A stretch of DNA of 64,000 nucleotides. It comes from Dyadobacter jejuensis (GTDB taxonomy: Bacteria; Bacteroidota; Bacteroidia; Cytophagales; Spirosomataceae). The position numbers were made by a program, and so were the translations under genes. Under the pieces are notes generated by a model that searched no databases, was not told the DNA's origin, and saw nothing but the letters and a program-made list of their open reading frames with translations. Each line of letters begins with the position of its first letter. Within the stretch, counting starts at the first letter, position 1. Shown piece after piece: positions 8,235 to 19,173 of the stretch. The stretch spans positions 1 through 64,000 of the forward strand of contig NZ_QGDT01000002.1 of assembly GCF_003149085.1 (NCBI RefSeq), in the 5' to 3' direction.

Positions 8235-8840
8235 ATGAAACAGCATCCTTATTCAGGTGATGAAAGCCTATGGCTCGACTTCCAGTCGGGCAGTGAGCTG
8301 GCCTTGACCCAATTAATGGATCAATATATTGAACCCATGACCTATTATGGAAGGAAGCTTTCGCGCAACGACGATTTGATTCAGGATTGTATCCAGGAAA
8401 CGTTTATTGAGATTTGGCAGTACCGCCAAAGCCTAAAGGCCCTTCAAGAAATAAGACCATACCTGCTTACCTGCCTGAGAAGGAAGATAGGCAAGGCGAT
8501 AAAAAAGGATAACCACATATCCCTGGAAGAGAATCCTCCCACGTTGACCTTTGAGTTGGACTTCTCCATAGAGGATCGTCTCGTCAAAAACGAGGAAGAA
8601 ACGCAACGCTTACAAGAACTCAACCGTCATATCAATAGCTTATCGAAGCGGCGAAAAGAAATAATCTACCTTAAGTTCTATCAAAATCTAAGCAACGAGG
8701 AAATTGCCCAGATCATGGGAGTTCGCTACCAAACCGCCACTAATTTACTTCATGAGGCCATCAGCTCCCTTCGCGAACTAATCCCCTCCAAATCAATCCT
8801 TTCGCTCCTATACACCTGGGGCTATTTATTCGCACATTAA
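8235..8840 (+). CDS. FecI-type ECF sigma factor
   Basis: 201 aa, sigma-70 family, extracytoplasmic-function type. Region 2 is seen around residues 20-90 (DLIQDCIQETFIEIWQYRQ), and region 4 lies at about 130-185 with LSKRRKEIIYLKFYQNLSNE and a helix-turn-helix EIAQIMGVRYQTATNLL. It should direct RNA polymerase to the SusC operon downstream. The next gene encodes FecR, and the following SusC has the STN signalling domain, giving the complete transenvelope regulation set. The ATG at 8235 is clear; the AT-rich region upstream is shared with divergent treZ. The C-terminus ends shortly after region 4, as usual for Bacteroidota ECF factors. Confidence 0.9.
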   Translation: MKQHPYSGDESLWLDFQSGSELALTQLMDQYIEPMTYYGRKLSRNDDLIQDCIQETFIEIWQYRQSLKALQEIRPYLLTCLRRKIGKAIKKDNHISLEENPPTLTFELDFSIEDRLVKNEEETQRLQELNRHINSLSKRRKEIIYLKFYQNLSNEEIAQIMGVRYQTATNLLHEAISSLRELIPSKSILSLLYTWGYLFAH

Positions 8841-8922
8841 TATTTTCTAAAAAAATATTATAAAAAACAGTATAAAGTCAACATAGCGTTCCTACTGGGT
8901 ATGAATAGCTCAATTGACTTTG

Positions 8923-9990
8923 ATGAAAAATTATATCGATTACCAACTAGAGGACTTTCTGGAAGACCAAAGCTTCAGGGAATGGGTCAGGGCTGGGGGA
9001 AAAGACCAGCCAGCTACCCAGTGGCACCTATGGCTTTCGCAGCATGCAGAACAGGCCGCAATAGCGGCCACTGCGCAGGAGATCCTGTTGGCTACCGGGG
9101 TAAAGGAGCAAGCCCTCCCCGCTCAATATAAGGAACGTATTATAGAGAATACCCTTCAAAGCGTACAGGAATTGGCGCCGCATCGTAATGTATTTGGCCG
9201 TAACTGGCATTTCCCCCTTTCTATTGCGGCATCCATCGTATTGCTTATTATGGCGCTGTGGCAGTTTAATATTGGCCCATTTGGGAAGCAAGATCCTACA
9301 CCATGGACCATCATAGCCAACAAAGGGGAGGGTGCCACTATAAAACCCATAGCACTGTCGGACGGGAGCACGGTATTGCTTTATCCTGGAAGTAGCCTTC
9401 ACTTACCCCCCACCTTTGCCAGCAAGCAACGGGTGGTACATTTGGAGGGTAAGGCCTTTTTTGAAATTCAGAAAGACGCCAGCCGCCCATTTTACGTGCA
9501 CAGCCAGGAAATGGTGACCAAGGTACTAGGTACTAGCTTTCTTATAGAAGCCTTCGAAACCGACCCTCGCTTCGAGGTCGTGGTAAAAAGTGGTAAAGTG
9601 ACCGTGAGCACGGTAGAAAAGGACAGCAAAAAACAACAGGAAATAGAATTGTCGCCCAATCACCAACTGGTACTAGAGCGGGATAGACATACGATGGTAA
9701 AGAAGGTCATTACCACCGAGGAGGTACAGCGAGTAAGCCCTAATAATATTCAGAAGTTGATCTTCGAAGACAGCTCAGTGGCCTCGATTCTTCAAGTCTT
9801 AGAAAAGCGTTATGATGTAAAAATCGTTCTAAAAGGCGCTTCACTAGCGGACTGCGCATTAACGACCACTTTCAACGACGAACCTCTTTTTGAAAAACTA
9901 AAAATCATTTGTCAGGCCATCGGACCGTCGACAGATTTCAAAGTACTCGAAAATCAAATTTTAATTACCACTAAAGGATGTAATAACTAA
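8923..9990 (+). CDS. FecR-family anti-sigma factor
   Basis: 355 aa from the ATG at 8923; a TTG three codons earlier (8914) is the alternative. It is a single-pass inner-membrane protein: a cytoplasmic N-terminal part binds the sigma factor, one membrane segment follows (LSIAASIVLLIMALWQF, about residues 93-110), then a periplasmic FecR domain (about 130-225, SDGSTVLLYPGSSL and VHLEGKAFFEI) and a C-terminal DUF4974 domain (about 275-350, IFEDSSVASILQVLEKRY). The periplasmic part reads the STN domain of the SusC gene product encoded 156 bases downstream. Architecture and length are typical of Bacteroidota. Signal from the loaded transporter would release the FecI sigma factor encoded just upstream. 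Confidence 0.9.
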   Translation: MKNYIDYQLEDFLEDQSFREWVRAGGKDQPATQWHLWLSQHAEQAAIAATAQEILLATGVKEQALPAQYKERIIENTLQSVQELAPHRNVFGRNWHFPLSIAASIVLLIMALWQFNIGPFGKQDPTPWTIIANKGEGATIKPIALSDGSTVLLYPGSSLHLPPTFASKQRVVHLEGKAFFEIQKDASRPFYVHSQEMVTKVLGTSFLIEAFETDPRFEVVVKSGKVTVSTVEKDSKKQQEIELSPNHQLVLERDRHTMVKKVITTEEVQRVSPNNIQKLIFEDSSVASILQVLEKRYDVKIVLKGASLADCALTTTFNDEPLFEKLKIICQAIGPSTDFKVLENQILITTKGCNN

Positions 9991-10146: not shown

Positions 10147-13100
10147 ATGAAAAAAAAACTATTCAACGCTCATACCTGGAGCCAGATCATGAAAATTTCC
10201 AGCATACAGATACTGATGGCTCTCGTGCTGACCTCCGCCACCTGGGCGAATACATCGGCTCAGGAGATGCTAAAGGTTCGGGTTAATATTAGCCATAAGG
10301 AATCGAGCCTGCGTACCATCCTCAGTGAACTAAGCCAAATGACTGGGGTAAGAATCACCTATAACTCCAAGGTGGTGACACGTACGGCAAAAGCCTCTAT
10401 ACAGGCTACCAACAAGCCTCTTTCAGCCGTCTTAGAACAATTACTGACACCCAAAAGTATCACCTATCTAGTTTTTGACGACCAAATTGTTCTCAGAAAT
10501 ATGGAAAAAGCTCCGTCACCACCTAAGACGGAACAACCTATTCCTCAGGTCAAACAAATCATTTCGGGCTCGGTAACCGATGAGTCTGGAACGGCCTTGC
10601 CGGGTGTAAGCATACTGGTAAAAGGCACCCAACAGGGTACTACCAGCGATGTTGACGGGAAGTATGAGCTAAGCTTGGACAAAACGCCCGTTACGTTAGT
10701 CTTTTCCTTCGTAGGATATCTAAAAGAGGAGCTCGTGATCAACAACCAGACCCAGCAAAATGTAATCCTCCGCCCGGACACCAAGGCTTTGGACGAAATA
10801 ATAGTAGTGGGTTACGGTACCCAACGTAAAATTGAAACGACCGGATCCATAGCATCTGTAAAGGCCGAGGATCTTAATCAGCTCCCCGTCACCAATGTTG
10901 CTCAGGGGCTACAAGCCAGAGTATCGGGGGTACAGATCAACCAAAACTCAGGAGCGCCAGGTGGTAACATTAGTGTCCGCATCCGTGGAACGAATTCTAT
11001 TAATGGAAACTCCGAGCCACTTTATATCATCGATGGAATTCAGATATCTAATAGTGGGGGAATCAACGATGTGAGCCCATTATCTTCTATTAATCCCAAC
11101 GACATAGAGTCGGTAGAGGTACTAAAAGACGCTTCCGCTTCGGCTATTTATGGTTCCAGAGCGGCCAACGGAGTAGTCCTAATCACCACGAAAAGAGGGA
11201 AAGCAGGGGCTACTAAAGTATCCTTTGAGAGCTATTATGGCGTGCAAGAAGTATCCAAAAAAATGGATGTATTAAATGCCTCCCAATTTGCACAACTAGA
11301 GAATGAGGTCTTCAAAAACAATTATTATACCGACCCTGCTTCGTTGGGTGAGGGTGTTAACTGGCAGGATCTTATCTTTAGAAAAGCTGCCATACAGAAC
11401 CATCAGCTAACTATTTCTGGAGGAAGCCCTAAGACACAAATGTCCCTGTCTTTAAACTATTTCAATCAAGATGGAATCATCATCAATTCCGGTTTCAAAA
11501 GATTCTCTTACCGATTAAACCTCGACCATCAGGTCAACGATAAGCTAAAGGTGGGTACGAGCCTGATGGGTAGTTTTTCGGACAATAACGGTATCAACGC
11601 GGGAAGCACCAATATAGGGGATGCCTCCGTGGTGACTAGCAGTGTGTTGGGCGCGGCCATAGGAGCCCCTCCAACCTTACAACCCTATCGGGAAGATGGC
11701 AGTATTTTCCCCTTTGCCGAGCAGGGTAATGGACAATACCGAGAGGTAATTAACCCTTTGAATTATACCTCTATCCTTCAAAACAGAAATAGCAAAAGAG
11801 CGCTGATTAATGTTTATGGAGACTATGCCATAGCTCCTGGCCTCAACTATAGGGCTTCTTTTAATGCAGATGTTACCACTGGCCTCAATGATAGCTACTC
11901 CCCTATTTCGATCATTGCCGTCAACGACCGTAATGATAATTCGGGCTCGGCCTCTAAGTACAATTCCAATTCTTTGAATTTATTACACGAGAGTATCTTA
12001 ACCTATGCCAAAACTTTCGCAGGGCAGCATAGTCTGAAATTTACGGGTCTTTATGCTTTCCAATCCCAAAAATTCAATTCAAACACCCTGAATGCCAGCG
12101 GTTTCCCCAATGATGCCACCCAAAACGAAGCCATGGAACTGGCCTTGAACCGAACCGTAAGCAGTTACCGTAGCTTAGAAAGGCTCGACTCTTATATGGG
12201 ACGGGTCAACTATGGCTTCAAGGAACGTTATTTCCTGGATCTTACTGCCAGAATGGATGGATCCAGCAAATTCGGCGCCAATCATAAATATGGTTTCTTT
12301 CCGGCCATTTCGGCTGCATGGCGAATCATCGAGGAGCCATTTTTACAGGACGTCAGCTGGCTGACCGACCTTAAGCTCCGTGCTAGCTATGGTATTACTG
12401 GAAATGCAGGAGGTATCTCTCCTTATAACTCTCTGGCTACTGTATCATCGGGAGGTGGTTATAATTTCAATAACGCCTATCAAACGGCCATACGCCCTTC
12501 AGGGATCGCCAATCCAGATTTAAGATGGGAGAAGTCGGCACAAAGTAACTTTGGGTTGGATATTAGCTTACTAAAAAACAGGGTCTCTGTAATCATAGAC
12601 CTTTATCATAAGCGGACCAACGACCTGTTATATATCAAAACCCTACCATTATCGTCGGGCTACGCCAGTATCACGGGCAATTACGGATCCCTAGAAAATA
12701 AAGGATTCGAATTTGCCACCAATGCGGTCTTGATCGATGGGCCCCTAAAATGGACCGTCAATGGTAACTTTACCGTTAACCGAAACAAAGTTTTGGACCT
12801 GGACGGTGGAACTACCGACGAACGCTTTATTACCAACTACACCATCCTAAAAGTGGGTCAGCCGTTGGGTATGTTCAAAACCTATGTATTTGATGGAATC
12901 AATCAAACTGGAGAAGCGATCCTCCCTGGCTATGACGGTCGCCTAGGTGGCCACAAGGTCAAGGACCTCAATGACGATGGGGTGATTAATTCTAGCGATC
13001 AAACCATTACCGGTAATCCTAACCCCAAATTTATCTACGGATTTTCGACCAACTTAGCCTACAAGAACTTCGACTTTGCCGCATTCTTCGCTGGGAGCTA

Positions 13101-13503
13101 TGGAAACGACATCTTAAATGCCAGCAGGCTTTCCTTCGAAAACCCATTGGGACAACGGAATTTATATGCGGGCGTCGTGGATCGGTGGACTCCCGACAAC
13201 CCCAGCAACCAATACGTAAGCCCACTCGTTGCCGGCCGACTGCCGATCTCCAACTACCCTGTTGAAGATGGATCTTATCTGCGTTGTAAGAACCTAATGT
13301 TGGGATATACCATCCCTAACCTAAAGAGCATCAGTAGGCTGCGCGTATACGTAAGTGCCAACAATCTCTTTACGTTCACCAAGTATACTGGCTTCGACCC
13401 GGGTGTCAATACCCATGCGGGATCTAACACCACTATTGGGATCGACAACTTGGTATACCCTCAGGCCAAATCGATATTGGGTGGTCTTCAGCTTACTTTT
13501 TAG
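10147..13503 (+). CDS. SusC/RagA-type TonB-dependent receptor with STN signalling domain
   Basis: 1118 aa outer-membrane importer. The order is: signal peptide to about residue 39 (cleavage near TSAQ), STN domain (about 40-118), carboxypeptidase-regulatory-like domain (about 138-215, GSVTDESGTALPGVSILVKG), a TonB-box-like DEIIVVGYGTQ near 218, plug domain (PLYIIDGIQI, SINPNDIESVEVLKDASAS, YGSRAANGVVLITTKRG) and a 22-strand-type barrel ending in ILGGLQLTF with a C-terminal Phe. The STN domain links substrate binding to the FecR/FecI pair upstream. It should pair with the SusD lipoprotein encoded 20 bases downstream. The substrate is unknown: no glycoside hydrolase is in the locus. The ATG at 10147 gives a complete signal peptide. 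Confidence 0.95.
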   Translation: MKKKLFNAHTWSQIMKISSIQILMALVLTSATWANTSAQEMLKVRVNISHKESSLRTILSELSQMTGVRITYNSKVVTRTAKASIQATNKPLSAVLEQLLTPKSITYLVFDDQIVLRNMEKAPSPPKTEQPIPQVKQIISGSVTDESGTALPGVSILVKGTQQGTTSDVDGKYELSLDKTPVTLVFSFVGYLKEELVINNQTQQNVILRPDTKALDEIIVVGYGTQRKIETTGSIASVKAEDLNQLPVTNVAQGLQARVSGVQINQNSGAPGGNISVRIRGTNSINGNSEPLYIIDGIQISNSGGINDVSPLSSINPNDIESVEVLKDASASAIYGSRAANGVVLITTKRGKAGATKVSFESYYGVQEVSKKMDVLNASQFAQLENEVFKNNYYTDPASLGEGVNWQDLIFRKAAIQNHQLTISGGSPKTQMSLSLNYFNQDGIIINSGFKRFSYRLNLDHQVNDKLKVGTSLMGSFSDNNGINAGSTNIGDASVVTSSVLGAAIGAPPTLQPYREDGSIFPFAEQGNGQYREVINPLNYTSILQNRNSKRALINVYGDYAIAPGLNYRASFNADVTTGLNDSYSPISIIAVNDRNDNSGSASKYNSNSLNLLHESILTYAKTFAGQHSLKFTGLYAFQSQKFNSNTLNASGFPNDATQNEAMELALNRTVSSYRSLERLDSYMGRVNYGFKERYFLDLTARMDGSSKFGANHKYGFFPAISAAWRIIEEPFLQDVSWLTDLKLRASYGITGNAGGISPYNSLATVSSGGGYNFNNAYQTAIRPSGIANPDLRWEKSAQSNFGLDISLLKNRVSVIIDLYHKRTNDLLYIKTLPLSSGYASITGNYGSLENKGFEFATNAVLIDGPLKWTVNGNFTVNRNKVLDLDGGTTDERFITNYTILKVGQPLGMFKTYVFDGINQTGEAILPGYDGRLGGHKVKDLNDDGVINSSDQTITGNPNPKFIYGFSTNLAYKNFDFAAFFAGSYGNDILNASRLSFENPLGQRNLYAGVVDRWTPDNPSNQYVSPLVAGRLPISNYPVEDGSYLRCKNLMLGYTIPNLKSISRLRVYVSANNLFTFTKYTGFDPGVNTHAGSNTTIGIDNLVYPQAKSILGGLQLTF

Positions 13504-13523: not shown

Positions 13524-15020
13524 ATGAAAAAATCATATAAAAAAATCTATACGGCTCTTGCCTCCTGCTGCATCGTACTAGGAATGGGAGCTTGCCAATT
13601 AGAAGAGGAGGTATACTCTTCCATATTTACGGAAACGTTCTATAAAACATCCTCCGACGCCGAAAAGGGGCTTATTGCCGTTTACGATTCCTTTGGACAG
13701 CTATATGCAGCCCCGGCAGCTATTATGGTGCCCGAGTACAGTGGGGACCAAATCTACCCACGCGGGGTGGTAGGTAGAAACTCCCTCACTTTGTTTTCAG
13801 TGGAACCTACTTACACCGTCCAAAAGAGTGCAGGAAGGACATTTGAATCCCCTCAGCATCTATGGTCGAGCTCCTATAGCGGAATCGAAAAAGCCAACTG
13901 GATTATCGCCAAAGTGCCCGATGCCACCATGGACGAAACCCGTAAAAAACAAATCATCGGGGAAGCGTACTTTTTGAGAGCCTTTTTTCACTGGACCTTA
14001 ACCAAGAACTTCGGAGAAGTGGTGATTAAAACTGCTCCAAGTTATTCGGAAGAGGAGGCGTTTGTAGAAAAAAGCACAATCCCGGAGGTTTATAAGCAAA
14101 TTTATAGCGATCTGGATCAAGCCGCTCAATCGGGCCTACCCTCCTACCCTGCGGTAGAAAAAGGAAGGCCCTCCAATGAAGCAGTGTCGGCCCTTTATGC
14201 CAAGGTGGCCCTTTATAATAAAGACTGGGCTACGGCCTTGTCTAAGGCAAAGGCGGTGATCGCTTCGGGCAAGTATCAACTGATGGCCAGCGTACCAGAC
14301 CTTTACAGCTACCTCAAAGAGGATGATGCCCGAAAGGAAAACATATGGGCCTATGAGGCCGACCCGATTAGCCCTGGTAACTCGCACCAGCTGATTGGCC
14401 TATGTGGACCATCGGGTAGTGCAGGAGTGGAATATGCCAGAACCTCCTATGGCTCCATGTTTGCCTATATGTCCTTTTATAATTCCTTTGACCCTGCCGA
14501 TAAGCGCCGACAGATGCTCGACACCACTTACCTAAACAAATCGGGGCAATGGGTGGCTCAAAAGGACATCACACCAATTACGACGGATGGGGTATTGATC
14601 AAAAAATACCAAGACCCTGTCTCTACTACGGGCACCATTCCCAATATCCCTGTTCTGCGTTTGGCAGATATGTATTTGATAGCTGCCGAAGCGGAAGCGG
14701 AATTGAACGGTGCTAGTTCGGAAGCATATTCACTGATACAGGTGATTCGGGATAGGGCCGGACTCGACGCTCTACCTACGGGCATGACCAAGGACCAGTT
14801 TATCAAGGCGGTCATTCAGGAAAGGGCTTGGGAATTCTTCGGCGAAGGCGATCGCTGGTACGACCTCTCCCGCACCGACCAGTACCAAGAGGTGGTTTCT
14901 AAGGCGGTTAACTCGGTTTATCCCGAACGCCCCATTCAGAAAAAAAACAAGTACTTCCCCATCCCACAGGATGAAATCAATGCCAATCCCAAATTGACTC
15001 AAAATACCGACTGGCTTTAA
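13524..15020 (+). CDS. SusD/RagB-family outer-membrane lipoprotein
   Basis: 498 aa surface substrate-binding lid for the SusC immediately upstream. It has a lipoprotein signal with lipobox LGMGAC (acylated Cys24). The fold is the TPR-rich SusD type: YFLRAFFHWTLTKNFGEV near residue 150 and the C-terminal PVLRLADMYLIAAEAEAEL, RAGLDALP and QERAWEFFGEGDRWYDLSR segments are the family signature. Length is usual. It is 20 bases after susC and 87 bases before the next start, in the same operon. The ligand cannot be predicted from sequence reading. Confidence 0.95.
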   Translation: MKKSYKKIYTALASCCIVLGMGACQLEEEVYSSIFTETFYKTSSDAEKGLIAVYDSFGQLYAAPAAIMVPEYSGDQIYPRGVVGRNSLTLFSVEPTYTVQKSAGRTFESPQHLWSSSYSGIEKANWIIAKVPDATMDETRKKQIIGEAYFLRAFFHWTLTKNFGEVVIKTAPSYSEEEAFVEKSTIPEVYKQIYSDLDQAAQSGLPSYPAVEKGRPSNEAVSALYAKVALYNKDWATALSKAKAVIASGKYQLMASVPDLYSYLKEDDARKENIWAYEADPISPGNSHQLIGLCGPSGSAGVEYARTSYGSMFAYMSFYNSFDPADKRRQMLDTTYLNKSGQWVAQKDITPITTDGVLIKKYQDPVSTTGTIPNIPVLRLADMYLIAAEAEAELNGASSEAYSLIQVIRDRAGLDALPTGMTKDQFIKAVIQERAWEFFGEGDRWYDLSRTDQYQEVVSKAVNSVYPERPIQKKNKYFPIPQDEINANPKLTQNTDWL

Positions 15021-15107
15021 TCCACGATGTATAAACTCCCTCCCATGGGCCCTCTCCAAGCAGAGGGTTCAGCTGGGAAGGAGTCCAACTTAAATCCAAA
15101 TCAGGCT

Positions 15108-16226
15108 ATGAAAAGATATTGGGGCTTTCCATCTGGGCTGTTCGTTTTTATGATGATGTTATGGGGCCAACCGGCGTATTCCTCCACGCCGTCGGGTCCC
15201 CTTGACAAAGGCATACCGACTATTCGCGAATTCCAAATCACAGAAAACGACACCCTGAGCTATACCCTCAAACTGGCTTTTGATGAGTCGGGGAGGCCAC
15301 AATATTTCTACCGGAATATTTTCACACCGGTTTGCTATACCAACGAATGCAAGCCGGTGTATATCAACTTCTATTGGGACCTGTTGGGAAACTACCAACG
15401 CTTTGACCTACCAAAAGGAAAAATCCTTACCAAGGTTGACCATGATCCCTTTATGGAGGAAGATTACCAGAAGCTGCAGGAAATTCTTAGCAAGGAGAAC
15501 TCCATATTTATCGATCTTGAAATGAATGATTTGATCGTGGAAGGCACCGACGATCTCAGCGATTCGGTAGACACCAAGTCGGGAGCTACACTTAAAACCA
15601 TTAAGAATGAGATTATCGATGGGGCAGTTTACACTTGCTTTACTTTATGGAAAATTGCCCATGGCAAGATAGCAGAGGTGATTCCAGGCCTCATTCACGA
15701 ATATGAGGATGATATGCTGATTCACGAATTTTTAAGGAGTTCGAATCATCATTACCAAAACTGGGCCTTAGACCGCCTCTTCGATTCCCAGGGAAAAGTC
15801 AGAGATACCTTTTCAGAGGACCTCATGGGGGTGATGTCGGGAAAAAATATATTCACCGCCAAACAGGCATGGACGCGCGTGAACCCCTCCTTTTTTGAAA
15901 ATCCTAACCGCCAGCAATGGCTAGTAAGATCATTTGACAGCGTTCCCTATTCTACCCAGTTGGTAATCCTCGACAAGCTGCCAAAGATTAGGTTTCAAGA
16001 TGGGGTGCTAGCCCGCTGGATCGACCGGCTGCCAAGCTCGAACCGAGAACAAAGAGAAGGCCTGGTAGAAATGCTTAAAGCACAGGATCTATCTAGTCGC
16101 TCACAACAACAGTTACTGGCCTTTTTGGACCGTAACGATGCCGCCTTGACACAGAGCTGCCTGGCCGTTCTGGAACAAGTGGAGCACCCCGACCCAAGAA
16201 TAATACAAAAGCTAAAAGAATACTAA
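15108..16226 (+). CDS. Secreted protein with ApbE-type flavinylation motif (putative flavin carrier)
   Basis: 372 aa from the ATG at 15108, which gives a clean signal peptide (MKRYWGFPSGLFVFMMMLWG, cut near AYSS). An ATG at 15027 would add 27 residues and bury the signal. Residues 156-161 read DTKSGAT, matching the Dxx(S/T)GAT motif in which ApbE esterifies FMN to the Thr (here Thr161). Around it are two cysteines near residues 76 and 81 (VCYTNEC), a YWDLLGNYQRF segment, TKVDHDPF and GAVYTCFTLWKIAHG. The C-terminal half (about 200-372) looks like helical HEAT-type repeats. ApbE is encoded two genes downstream and an FAD oxidoreductase in between. I infer a periplasmic or secreted flavoprotein carrying electrons; its partner is unknown. 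Similarity outside the motif was not checked. Confidence 0.6.
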   Translation: MKRYWGFPSGLFVFMMMLWGQPAYSSTPSGPLDKGIPTIREFQITENDTLSYTLKLAFDESGRPQYFYRNIFTPVCYTNECKPVYINFYWDLLGNYQRFDLPKGKILTKVDHDPFMEEDYQKLQEILSKENSIFIDLEMNDLIVEGTDDLSDSVDTKSGATLKTIKNEIIDGAVYTCFTLWKIAHGKIAEVIPGLIHEYEDDMLIHEFLRSSNHHYQNWALDRLFDSQGKVRDTFSEDLMGVMSGKNIFTAKQAWTRVNPSFFENPNRQQWLVRSFDSVPYSTQLVILDKLPKIRFQDGVLARWIDRLPSSNREQREGLVEMLKAQDLSSRSQQQLLAFLDRNDAALTQSCLAVLEQVEHPDPRIIQKLKEY

Positions 16227-16289
16227 CCTATTCCTAAACCCTAGCTTTTTTTAGCTAAATAATTCCTTTACATCAAAACATTTATCGTT

Positions 16290-18095
16290 ATGTTCAAATT
16301 CTTAGGTTACCTCTTCCTAATGGGGTACATTCTGATACCGGCTTCTATGGCCCAAAATCATGTTTTTGTAGAAGCCGAATCCTTCGACAACAAAGGGGGT
16401 TGGGTAATCGACCAGCAATCTTTCGCCGTTATGCAATCCTCCTACCTGATGGCCCATGGCATGGGCGAGCCTGTGAGCGATGCCAGTACCACCGTACAAT
16501 TCCCCAAGGCGGGCACCTACCAAATGTGGGTACGGACCAAAGACTGGGCCCCCTATCCAAAAGGCCCCGGACAATTCCAGATGTCGATCGATGGCAAGCC
16601 CCTCCCCACCGTGTATGGTGCCAGTGGTAATGACGAATGGAAATGGTACAAAGGGGAACGTATTACTGTAAAGCAATTGCAGGTAAAGCTCGCCATCCAA
16701 GACCTTACGGGTTTTAATGGACGTTGTGACGCCATCCTGTTTACCGAATCTACAGACTTTACCCCGCCCAACACCCTGGACGAACTCACCGCATTTCGTA
16801 AAAAGCAGCTAAAGCTTTCCGATCAGCCTATGGAAGCCGGTCATTTCGACCTCGTAGTGGTGGGTGGCGGAATAGCGGGTACTACGGCGGCCATCTCTGG
16901 CTCCCGGCTAGGCCTCAAAGTGGCCCTCATACAGAACCGTCCCGTATTAGGCGGCAATAATAGCTCGGAAGTACGCGTCCATTTAATGGGTGATATTGAT
17001 AAAAATCATTATCCCAAATTGGGGAGAATCGTCAGAGAGCTCGATAATGGTGACCCTGGCAATGGTAACCCGAATGCCAAAGAATATGGAGATGCACGGA
17101 AAATCGCCATCGTTAAGGCCGAGAAAAACATCAGTTTATTCCTAAACACCCACGTATACCGTCTTGAAAAACAACAAGATATCATCACCGCTGTGATAGG
17201 AAGGGACATAGCCACCAACCAGGAGATACGTTTTACGGGTTCATTTTTCTCTGACTGTACCGGCGATGGTACCCTGGGTTATTTGGCCGGTGCCGATTTC
17301 AGGATGGGGCGGGAAAGCCAAGCCGAAACCGGCGAATCGCTAGCCAGTACCAAGGCCGACGATTTCACTTTAGGAACCTCAAACCTTTGGGCGTCCACCC
17401 CCCGCGACTCTGTATCCACCTTCCCCCGTTTGCCTTGGGCGCTTCAATTTTCGGACGAATACCATATCGACGAGCCCCAGTCCGACTGGCAGTGGGAAAC
17501 AGGATTTGGGAATTATAATACCATTACCCAAGCCGAACAAATCCGGGATCATAACTTACGCGCCATTTACGGAAACTGGTCGTACCTCAAAAACAACAAG
17601 GCAGAGAAGTATGCCAAACATAAACTGGCCTGGGTAGCCTATATCGGTGGAAAACGAGAATCGCGCCGAATTTTAGGAGATCATATTCTTAACCAAATGG
17701 ACGTTCAAGAAGGAAAATTCTATAAGGATGGCACCGTAACCGCCACTTGGACCATTGACCTGCACTTCCCGGACAAGAAAAACAGCCAGTATTTCGAAGG
17801 TCAAGAGTTTTTTGCTGGCACCAAGCATATTAGGGTAGCTCCTTATACCATTCCTTACCGTTGCCTCTACTCTCGGAATATCCAGAATCTTTTTATGGCC
17901 GGTAGAAATATCAGTACCACCCACGTCGCCTTTGGAAGTACCCGCGTTATGCGAACCTGCGGTATGATGGGCGAAGTGGTAGGAATGGCCGCTTACGTAG
18001 CCAAAAAACATAATACCACTCCCAGGGGTGTATATCAGGATTATTTAAGCGACCTGCTGGTGCTCGTAAAAGACGAACCCACTCCACAACCCTAA
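16290..18095 (+). CDS. Secreted FAD-dependent oxidoreductase with carbohydrate-binding-like domain
   Basis: 601 aa. A signal peptide (cleavage near SMAQ, residue 21) leads into a beta-sandwich-like domain (about 24-160) with FVEAESF, AGTYQMWVRT and a GRCDAILFT end, like CBM35/galactose-binding folds. Then comes an FAD_oxidored-type Rossmann domain starting FDLVVVGGGIAGTTAA near 187 and PVLGGNNSSEVRVHLMG; the second FAD site DCTGDGTLGYLAGADF lies near 325, and NLFMAGRNISTTHVAFGSTRVM near the C-terminus closes the flavin site. The signal peptide places it outside the cytoplasm, unusual for an FAD enzyme. It likely oxidises a sugar-like or glycan substrate; the substrate is unknown. It sits between a putative flavin-carrier gene and apbE in the SusCD operon. 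Annotations as xanthan lyase for such proteins are not supported here. Confidence 0.82.
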   Translation: MFKFLGYLFLMGYILIPASMAQNHVFVEAESFDNKGGWVIDQQSFAVMQSSYLMAHGMGEPVSDASTTVQFPKAGTYQMWVRTKDWAPYPKGPGQFQMSIDGKPLPTVYGASGNDEWKWYKGERITVKQLQVKLAIQDLTGFNGRCDAILFTESTDFTPPNTLDELTAFRKKQLKLSDQPMEAGHFDLVVVGGGIAGTTAAISGSRLGLKVALIQNRPVLGGNNSSEVRVHLMGDIDKNHYPKLGRIVRELDNGDPGNGNPNAKEYGDARKIAIVKAEKNISLFLNTHVYRLEKQQDIITAVIGRDIATNQEIRFTGSFFSDCTGDGTLGYLAGADFRMGRESQAETGESLASTKADDFTLGTSNLWASTPRDSVSTFPRLPWALQFSDEYHIDEPQSDWQWETGFGNYNTITQAEQIRDHNLRAIYGNWSYLKNNKAEKYAKHKLAWVAYIGGKRESRRILGDHILNQMDVQEGKFYKDGTVTATWTIDLHFPDKKNSQYFEGQEFFAGTKHIRVAPYTIPYRCLYSRNIQNLFMAGRNISTTHVAFGSTRVMRTCGMMGEVVGMAAYVAKKHNTTPRGVYQDYLSDLLVLVKDEPTPQP

Positions 18096-18153
18096 TCCAA
18101 AAATTATAGATGCTAAGACCCAATGCTATGGATTCGGTTGGTATATTCGAACT

Positions 18154-19173
18154 ATGAATATCGTCCATACTATTTTCATTAAATGCCTTATCTTGCCATT
18201 CATGCTGCTTTCCCCTATGCTGGGGAGGGCAGCAGCTGGCGATATACCCTTGGTTACCCTAGAAGGGGAAACCCAAGGGACGACTTACCATCTTAAATAT
18301 TACGACCAAGAAGCCCGAAACTATAAAGGCGCTATCGACTCCATCCTGTTGGCATTTGACCGCTGCCTATCCCTCTATCGGCCCGATTCGGAAATTTCGC
18401 GCTTCAACCGCTCCGACCAGCATACTTTCGAATCCCCCTTTTTTTACCCGATACTGCTCAAATCGCGTGAGGTATACGAGCAAACCCAAGGGGCTTTTGA
18501 CCCTACCATTTTCCCCTTAGTAGAAGCTTATGGTTTCGGGCCCAATCGAAAACACCAGGTATCGGAAGTGATCCTTCAGGAAATACTTCCCCTAGTGAAT
18601 TTCGATCGCATACACTTCGATTCCATTTCGGTACGAAAAGAACACCCAGGTATTCGCCTAGATTTCAATGGAATAGCCCAAGGCTACTCCGTGGACCTTT
18701 TGGCGATGTTCCTAGAGAAACAAGGTATTCATCGTTATATGGTCGAAATAGGCGGGGAGATACGTTGCCAGGGGAAAAAAGAGAATGGCAAGCCATGGAT
18801 GGCCGGGATAGAGGACCCCACCCGCCCCAGCAGGCTCATCGCCACCCTTCCCCTCTTAGACCGCTCCTTGACCACCTCAGGAAACTACCGCAACCATTTC
18901 GTGCACAACGGGCGTCTCTATAACCATATCATTAACCCTAAGACGGGAGATATGGAGTCCAGCAATATATTGAGTGTAACGGTACTCGCCAATGATGCCA
19001 TTACGGCCGATGGGTACGACACACCGCTATTCCTAATGGGGGTAGCGCAAAGTATAAGGTTTATTCGCGAAAGGAAGGATCTAGAAGTTTATCTCGTTTA
19101 TACCGACGACCAAGGGCAGCTGCAGACCTATGTGAGCCCTGGCCTAAAGGAGATCATCCAAGAAAAAAGGTAA
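18154..19173 (+). CDS. apbE: FAD:protein FMN transferase
   Basis: 339 aa flavin transferase that moves FMN from FAD onto a Thr of a target protein. A signal peptide (about 1-28, ending GRAAAG) sends it to the periplasm. Family motifs are visible: GTTYHLKY near the start, SEISRFN, GAFDPTIFPLVEAYGFG, the DFNGIAQGYSVD site near 175-186, EIGGEIRCQGKK, TTSGNYRNHF, HIINPKTGDMESSN and the metal-binding ADGYDTPLFLMG (Asp and Thr conserved). It closes the operon that encodes a protein with a DTKSGAT motif, its most likely substrate. No NqrC/RnfG gene is in the window to offer an alternative local target. A terminator-like hairpin overlaps its stop. Confidence 0.92.
   Translation: MNIVHTIFIKCLILPFMLLSPMLGRAAAGDIPLVTLEGETQGTTYHLKYYDQEARNYKGAIDSILLAFDRCLSLYRPDSEISRFNRSDQHTFESPFFYPILLKSREVYEQTQGAFDPTIFPLVEAYGFGPNRKHQVSEVILQEILPLVNFDRIHFDSISVRKEHPGIRLDFNGIAQGYSVDLLAMFLEKQGIHRYMVEIGGEIRCQGKKENGKPWMAGIEDPTRPSRLIATLPLLDRSLTTSGNYRNHFVHNGRLYNHIINPKTGDMESSNILSVTVLANDAITADGYDTPLFLMGVAQSIRFIRERKDLEVYLVYTDDQGQLQTYVSPGLKEIIQEKR

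Follow-up and report, generated by a model that had tools for sequence, protein, structure and literature searches.

The 64,000-nucleotide stretch of the Dyadobacter jejuensis genome analyzed here (the window) contains a SusCD locus for which the best-supported reading is a flavinylated electron-carrier module. The putative carrier, here designated FAM, would represent a class of ApbE substrate that has not been described before: on the best reading, it carries FMN in the periplasm, serves PF12831 enzymes specifically, and is usually encoded in SusC/D loci. We consider the mechanism as a whole, an ApbE-loaded FAM-FMN carrier paired with a PF12831 enzyme, to be probable. The neighboring ApbE would move FMN from FAD onto Thr161, located in a loop of the FAM N-terminal domain, and FAM, acting as a periplasmic electron carrier, would use this FMN to exchange electrons with the FAD bound by the PF12831 enzyme encoded next to it. 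The enzyme would most likely oxidize a sugar- or glycoside-like compound imported by SusCD, and the electrons would then pass from FAM toward the respiratory chain via a partner encoded elsewhere. The HEAT-like C terminus of FAM may provide a docking surface.

The FecIR-SusCD locus with FAM, an FAD oxidoreductase, and ApbE, described in the initial annotation, was borne out by ORF coordinates and Pfam matches (Table 1). All genes are on the plus strand, in the order ECF sigma–FecR–SusC–SusD–FAM–FAD_oxidored–ApbE. The intergenic gaps are 20 bases (SusC-SusD), 87 bases (SusD-FAM, to the start at 15108), 63 bases (FAM-FAD enzyme), and 58 bases (FAD enzyme-ApbE), and the next listed ORF lies 293 bases after the end of ApbE. 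A promoter and terminator scan gave counts no higher than chance. An STN-like stretch in SusC (24.1 bits, under the Pfam cut-off of 28.4) suggests signaling to FecR.

Table 1. Features of the FAM locus in the window
Feature	Coordinates	Strand	Basis
ECF-type sigma factor	8235..8840	+	Pfam Sigma70_r2/r4_2
FecR-type anti-sigma factor	8914..9990	+	Pfam FecR, FecR_C
SusC/RagA TonB-linked outer-membrane transporter	10147..13503	+	TIGR04056 E 1e-274; Pfam Plug, CarbopepD_reg_2
SusD-type protein, lipoprotein by eye	13524..15020	+	PF07980/PF14322; SusD_RagB E 3e-39
FAM, putative secreted FMN carrier	15108..16226 (longer ORF from 15027)	+	without matching Pfam, NCBIfam, or PHROG model
FAM conserved N-terminal domain, five strands then helices	15216..15683	+	AlphaFold2 model, mean pLDDT 84.2; conservation
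DTKSGAT (D155-T161), predicted ApbE site, last residue Thr161	15570..15590	+	pattern match, Thr conservation
FAM C-terminal helical repeat, HEAT/armadillo-like	15627..16223	+	structure model; Foldseek
FAD-dependent oxidoreductase	16290..18095	+	PF12831 E 2.5e-73; signal peptide by eye
ApbE, FAD:protein FMN transferase	18154..19173	+	PF02424 E 2.7e-76; signal peptide by eye

The DTKSGAT motif ending in Thr161, previously noted in the protein starting at 15108, was confirmed (Thr161 is T188 in the longer FAM ORF). The motif as a DNA pattern has 11 matches in the genome, compared to 2 for the reversed pattern, and 4 of the 11 are the four FAM paralogs of the genome; given this number of matches, the 7-residue motif was set aside as weak evidence by itself. 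From the sequences compared, it is the fact that the Thr never varies among family members, together with gene linkage, and not the motif alone, that strongly supports the predicted site as more than a chance occurrence. The acceptor Thr161 is kept in all 104 distinct FAM N-terminal domains with sequence letters and in ten further members, while neighboring motif positions vary; C76, C81, W90, and G94 are likewise kept in 104 of 104. The published consensus Dxx[S/T]GA[S/T] is fitted exactly by 49 of these domains. Three kinds of variant count against reading FAM as a flavinylated carrier: DxxAGAT, which falls outside the consensus (42 of 104), replacement of Asp155 by Asn (3 of 104), and SGST, seen in one further member. 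Two plasmid-borne homologs, left out of the family building, keep DxxSGAT; one is encoded directly after a gene annotated as an FAD-dependent oxidoreductase, and the other has an FAD_oxidored-type ORF ~2.2 kb downstream.

Searches of FAM against Pfam, NCBIfam, and PHROGs gave no credible match. The FAM N terminus has a signal-like stretch, judged by eye, and the protein is probably exported to the periplasm. In whole-protein Foldseek searches, the best matches were designed armadillo proteins (E 7e-4), the matches listed being helical-repeat proteins, and a HEAT_2 Pfam match was obtained for 1 of 28 FAM members. Both structure models are least certain in the loop that bears the motif (block means, 41 to 57), which counts against the carrier reading.

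Membership of FAM in the FMN_bind family, raised in the initial annotation, was not supported: the Pfam profile search gave no match, the hhalign alignment was motif sized, and the Foldseek similarity was insignificant. Matches to the FMN_bind Pfam model were seen for 2 of 28 FAM members, with E values of 0.077 or worse. Filing FAM under FMN_bind was rejected as unproven on the basis of these searches and of a PDB profile search. That the FAM N-terminal domain is an extremely divergent FMN_bind domain is a possibility that we entertain without favoring it; it concerns the origin of FAM and is compatible with the carrier mechanism. Consistent with such an origin, hhalign of the N-terminal domain profile against 26 FMN_bind relatives gave 82% probability at the motif, compared to <1% against the SusD, ApbE, and FAD_oxidored profiles, and the PDB profile search returned the multi-flavinylated domain 8p2b at E 0.028 (0.14 with the N-terminal domain profile). 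In the Foldseek search with the N-terminal domain, the 50 best rows also included the four chains of NqrC 4xhf, which had the highest TMq among them (0.32). However, the NqrC matches had E values of 0.4 to 1.8 and an rmsd of about 12 A, the hhalign probability fell to 20% when NqrC proteins were the target and to 38% when the profile of the whole FAM protein was used, and nothing significant was found beyond about 16 to 42 residues around the motif. The hhalign alignment itself covered 16 to 22 motif columns (about 19). The FMN_bind set was obtained from 30 loci, 26 of which yielded an ORF under the motif filter; for the NqrC-type set, the filter was widened because the NqrC of the relatives reads SGGT, and 13 of the 15 ORFs entered the alignment once two short ones had been removed.

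The identity of the protein starting at 18154 as ApbE proved correct: PF02424 matched across the whole profile, residues 34 to 334 aligned with an FMN transferase of known structure (E 2e-51), and the HIINPKTG and TADG stretches align with solved FMN transferases. The window ApbE is 38.6 to 61.6% identical to 63 ApbE ORFs (55 distinct) of other FAM loci, compared to 24% and 27% for the two other ApbEs of its own genome. An ApbE gene is found within 5 kb for 59 of 115 distinct FAM members, including the distant FAMs in loci L177 (32% identity over 169 residues) and L180 (24% over 377), and the L180 ApbE is 48% identical to that of the window. This linkage covers only about half of the members, which counts against the flavinylated-carrier reading. 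The statement that NqrC and RnfG are lacking holds for the whole assembly, in which the FMN_bind search found no match. The genome has one DUF2271 protein, a known ApbE substrate; it is encoded on contig 1, close to the second of the three ApbEs, and the third lies in another SusCD locus. Asking which genomes have FAM, ApbE, and FMN_bind together was uninformative because ApbE is nearly ubiquitous (148 of 150 family genomes; FMN_bind, 21 of 150).

FAM might also be unflavinylated, with the motif forming a structural turn, ApbE serving another protein, and FAM assisting the FAD enzyme as its chaperone or as a docking subunit. The Ala and Asn variants and the lack of an above-threshold FMN_bind match, with a profile alignment of motif size only, would fit such a role. 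We nevertheless regard it as quite improbable, given the unchanged Thr, the related ApbE group linked even to distant FAM members, and the occurrence of the strict motif, Dxx[ST]GA[ST], in FAM but in none of SusC, SusD, the FAD enzyme, and ApbE, the other proteins of the five-gene operon. In addition, a single-change study, as retold in section 8 of PMC12052999, found that loss of the Asp was tolerated and loss of the Thr was not.

FAM is tightly linked to PF12831-type genes: for 104 of 115 distinct members, such a gene lies no more than 300 bp away in the same orientation, and for 109 it lies within 5 kb. The six members with no FAD_oxidored-type gene within 5 kb, which count against the carrier reading, belong to a Draconibacterium/Sunxiuqinia-type group, and two of these are <1 kb from a contig end. 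All four FAM genes in the genome of the window occur together with PF12831 genes, and six of its eight full-length PF12831 genes (E<1e-70) are in FAM loci. The recurrence of the trio beside SusCD in other genomes, which the initial annotation had proposed checking, was found in several genera, and the gene order is thus not unique to this strain. Distance correlations between genes were 0.88 (FAM-FADOX), 0.55 (FAM-ApbE), 0.45 (FAM-SusD), 0.25 (FADOX-ApbE), 0.26 (FADOX-SusD), and 0.57 (ApbE-SusD) for 57 of the 58 loci with FAM, the enzyme, and ApbE, one without SusD being omitted. Since ApbE tracks SusD as closely as it does FAM and shared ancestry is uncorrected, we build no argument on these values.

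In the FAD enzyme, PF12831 scored 248 bits (cut-off, 27), covering profile positions 1 to 410 of 416 and residues 187 to 584. No Pfam model claims the N-terminal region, whose carbohydrate-binding resemblance was judged by eye only. PDB relatives of the window and L138 enzymes were discarded, as the match was confined to the nucleotide-binding stretch. The two PF12831 genes of the genome outside FAM loci form a pair whose SusCD locus also contains Gluconate_2-dh3 and GMC genes, which counts toward the oxidation direction. GMC oxidoreductases with a Gluconate_2-dh3 subunit likewise combine, in sugar loci, a flavin dehydrogenase and a small partner protein; both the enzyme and the partner family differ from those of the FAM module. 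No PepSY-, NapH-, or MsrQ-type donor was found among the typed FAM neighbors, and this also counts toward oxidation. Several of the typed neighbors had no family match, a point against the carrier reading.

Electrons could instead flow in the opposite direction, with reduced FAM-FMN donating to the PF12831 enzyme as a periplasmic reductase, in the manner of FMN_bind domains with extracytosolic fumarate and urocanate reductases. This is unlikely in our view, although flavinylated domains are described as feeding fumarate-reductase-like enzymes from carriers encoded elsewhere (PMC8238504, section 16). The nucleotide-binding stretch of the enzyme gave weak flavocytochrome c matches, among many other flavoproteins, but these cover that stretch alone, and the best family is PF12831. 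Glycosidases and sulfatases in some other FAM loci (GH43-like, GH78, GH2, and sulfatases) and the aerobic lifestyle of the genus also argue against a reductase.

A further point against the carrier reading is that the window operon encodes no downstream electron carrier. Near FAM, ORFs with a CXXCH motif were found in 5 of 131 loci, of which two (L174 and L180) have a Pfam cytochrome c domain and the other three are untyped; a local cytochrome as the next carrier was rejected, Pfam cytochrome c domains being found only at these two loci.

No description of the FAM module was found among the papers listed by searches of an open-licence library, and the passages of PMC9606717, on a Dyadobacter, that were examined mention neither flavin nor ApbE. 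More tentatively, FAM could be a new ApbE-flavinylated class, nonhomologous to FMN_bind, and the standard carrier for the secreted PF12831 oxidoreductases that Bacteroidota encode in SusCD loci. Periplasmic glycan attack would then be oxidative as well as hydrolytic, and covalent FMN, rather than cytochrome c, would connect its oxidative part to respiration. If the carrier role is true, FAM would be the electron acceptor for uncharacterized PF12831 oxidoreductases of SusCD loci and would therefore offer a way to assay them. It is also a concrete candidate class of ApbE substrate with a strongly linked enzyme, relevant to the orphan ApbEs left in 4% of the genomes of one set after DUF2271 and DUF3570, both ApbE substrates, were counted (PMC8238504, section 7).

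Like the FMN_bind proteins (PF04205: NqrC, RnfG, and flavinylated reductases), FAM has a Dxx[ST]GAT-type site, a predicted extracytosolic location, a nearby ApbE, and a putative carrier role, but the likeness is confined to the motif, with no above-threshold Pfam match, and FAM has a HEAT-like tail and a conserved Cys pair and Trp. DUF2271, DUF3570, and the flavinylated Flavodoxin_4 and FMN_red proteins (PMC8238504, section 7; PMC11334425, section 6) were similarly recognized by an ApbE neighbor and a conserved motif; these four were tested by coexpression, whereas FAM, a different family, is a candidate. Fumarate-reductase-like flavinylation clusters (PMC8238504, sections 16 and 17) also combine an extracytosolic FAD oxidoreductase with a flavinylated domain, whereas FAM loci have a PF12831 rather than a PF00890 enzyme, a separate putative carrier without an FMN_bind match, and a SusCD context.

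The sequence DTKSGAT, with Thr161 as the candidate flavinylation site, lies in the protein encoded at 15108, a putative secreted FMN carrier whose family is here called FAM. An ORF and domain recheck confirmed the coordinates, the motif, and the residue numbering that the initial annotation had given for this locus. The signal peptides of the operon proteins were called by eye, as was the resemblance of the FAD enzyme N terminus, to which Pfam assigns no family, to a carbohydrate-binding domain.

Features of the FAM operon in the window
Feature	Position	Strand
ECF sigma	8235	same as rest of run
FecR	8914	same as rest of run
SusC	10147	same as rest of run
SusD	13524	same as rest of run
FAM (protein under study)	15108-16226	same as rest of run
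FAD_oxidored enzyme	16290	same as rest of run
ApbE	18154	same as rest of run

The profile search for FMN_bind (PF04205, a known ApbE substrate family) proposed in the initial annotation gave no support, as the window FAM had no match in Pfam at an E value of 1. PHROGs also gave no match, and NCBIfam gave a single chance match (E value, 0.19). Among 28 FAM members scanned, HEAT repeats were matched in one (E value, 0.0002) and FMN_bind was matched in two (E value, 0.077 or worse).

FAM genes are closely linked to genes for FAD_oxidored (PF12831) enzymes. In 131 loci (the window, L034 to L153, and L171 to L180), all chosen for holding FAM, we counted 115 FAM proteins of 200 amino acids or more, taking as distinct those that differ within the last 150 residues. 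Using an enzyme profile made in this analysis from those same loci, a FAD_oxidored-type gene was found on the same strand within 300 bp of FAM in 104/115 cases and within 5 kb in 109/115. SusC or SusD was located within 9 kb in 100/115 cases and ApbE within 5 kb in 59/115. The gene set recurs near SusCD in other genomes, a check that the initial annotation had proposed. Pfam confirmed PF12831 in all FAM-locus enzymes submitted (window, L138, L048, L050, L055 [both], L056 [both pieces], L060, L062 [downstream gene], and L054 [upstream gene]). Each of the four FAM genes in the window's genome is accompanied by a PF12831 gene, and FAM loci account for six of the eight full-length PF12831 genes. 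The remaining two lie together in one SusCD locus, which also contains an MFS transporter, Gluconate_2-dh3, and a GMC oxidoreductase. In the paralogous locus L056 (contig 5, 175000 to 191000), which may be decaying, a stop codon interrupts the FAD_oxidored gene and FAM has just 278 amino acids. Two tandem FAM-FAD_oxidored pairs flank a single ApbE in three Dyadobacter loci (L074, L077, and L083).

The six FAM genes with no FAD_oxidored-type gene within 5 kb (L142, L144, L145, L146, L148, and L153) come from Draconibacterium, Sunxiuqinia, and a Bacteroidetes MAG, and two of them (L142 and L148) lie less than 1 kb from a contig end. Their typed neighbors include HlyD, NIF3, MFS, and DPP IV genes, and the motif reads Dxx[S/T]SAT in five of the six. 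Two plasmid-borne homologs keep the motif: in Flammeovirga, FAM (annotated as a hypothetical protein) is directly 3' of a gene annotated as an FAD-dependent oxidoreductase, and in Persicobacter, a FAD_oxidored-type ORF lies ~2.2 kb downstream.

The Dxx[ST]GAT motif alone is hardly more than chance: its DNA pattern had 11 matches in the 5.76-Mb genome, and reversing the pattern gave 2. However, four of these 11 matches correspond one-to-one to the genome's four FAM homologs. Conservation was assessed in 105 distinct N-terminal domains, taken from the window plus 126 ORFs. Because one is a fragment without letters at the motif, counts are out of 104. Thr161, C76, C81, W90, and G94 are each kept in 104/104 and Asp155 in 101/104. 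The variants are Dxx[S/T]GAT (49), DxxAGAT (42), Dxx[S/T]SAT (9), NxxTGAT (3), and DxxSAAT (1). Each of ten further members (L171 to L180) likewise has the Asp, Thr, and Cys pair, and one of them reads SGST. In the part of the literature consulted, the motif is given as Dxx[S/T]GA[S/T], with loss of the Thr reported to abolish flavinylation and loss of the Asp to have little effect (review PMC12052999). The Ala at the fourth position of DxxAGAT (e.g., L066 to L070) is outside this consensus, is not discussed in section 8 of that paper, and may mark a changed ApbE specificity.

The window's genome encodes three ApbEs and has no match to FMN_bind or DUF3570. The second ApbE is near DUF2271 and a PepSY_TM-flavodoxin-reductase protein, a locus of the same kind as systems described in the consulted part of PMC8238504. 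The third is in a SusC-SusD-GH2-ApbE-phosphatase locus (L168; contig 8, 142500 to 162000), where no recognized ApbE substrate was found; the sole motif-like match at this locus falls within the phosphatase, whose active site it may represent. The window ApbE is 38.6% to 61.6% identical to 63 ApbE ORFs (55 distinct) of other FAM loci, including 48% in L180, where FAM is 24% identical, but only 24% and 27% identical to the other two ApbEs of its own genome, which fits an ApbE line traveling with FAM. The search around this genome's other three FAM paralogs gave no ApbE (the contig 4 paralog is near a contig end), and these paralogs would therefore need to make common use of one of the genome's three ApbEs.

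FAM is present in 51/150 genomes of the same family and 20/36 genera, and in 9/296 Bacteroidota genomes sampled phylum-wide, one by a borderline match outside the motif (own genome counted in both). When the genomes of 84,980 species were scanned, 139 relatives were confirmed, the best 80 of which include Dyadobacter, Spirosoma, Larkinella, Runella, Chitinophaga, Parapedobacter, Olivibacter, Flexithrix, Sunxiuqinia, and others; since these 80 are skewed to Dyadobacter and the scan used one peptide pattern, it is no gauge of absence elsewhere. ApbE-flavinylated extracytosolic carriers are of a known kind. We found no description of FAM or its PF12831 pairing in the open-licence papers searched, and the main texts of PMC8238504 and PMC11334425 do not mention SusC, HEAT, or FAD_oxidored.

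We favor a scheme in which SusCD would import a glycan-derived compound, the PF12831 enzyme would oxidize it, FMN on FAM would accept the electrons, and a partner encoded elsewhere would hand them back to respiration. Sugar oxidation is supported by the glycosidases and sulfatases held by some other FAM loci and by the GMC oxidoreductase and Gluconate_2-dh3 beside the FAM-less enzymes. As no glycosidase is present among the typed genes of the window operon, its substrate is a guess; several typed neighbors of FAM matched no family. By analogy, electrons could flow in reverse, as in the flavinylated fumarate-type reductases described in the consulted part of PMC8238504.

The AlphaFold2 model of FAM (mean pLDDT, 86.8) has a beta-rich N-terminal domain (84.2 when modeled alone) and a HEAT/armadillo-like tail, and the motif, right before a helix, lies in the least certain stretch. 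With Foldseek, the whole model matched designed armadillo proteins and the N-terminal domain had no significant match; the four chains of NqrC 4xhf were among its best 50 rows (E values, 0.4 to 1.8; rmsd, about 12 Å; not significant). The N-terminal domain profile aligned with 26 FMN_bind relatives over 19 columns around the motif (82% probability), the whole-protein profile reached 38%, and comparison with an NqrC alignment reached 20%; SusD, ApbE, and FAD_oxidored controls gave <1% and FMN_bind versus NqrC gave 100%. A profile search of PDB sequences listed the multi-flavinylated domain 8p2b (E value, 0.028) below an unrelated helical match; with the N-terminal domain profile, the E value of 8p2b was 0.14. 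Given the nonsignificant Foldseek matches, the 19-column alignment, and these E values, a common origin of the FAM N-terminal domain and FMN_bind is no more than a possibility. HEAT-like regions occur both in FAM and in a DUF7133-HEAT-cytochrome c protein located about 5.0 and 1.1 kb away in L174 and L180, respectively.
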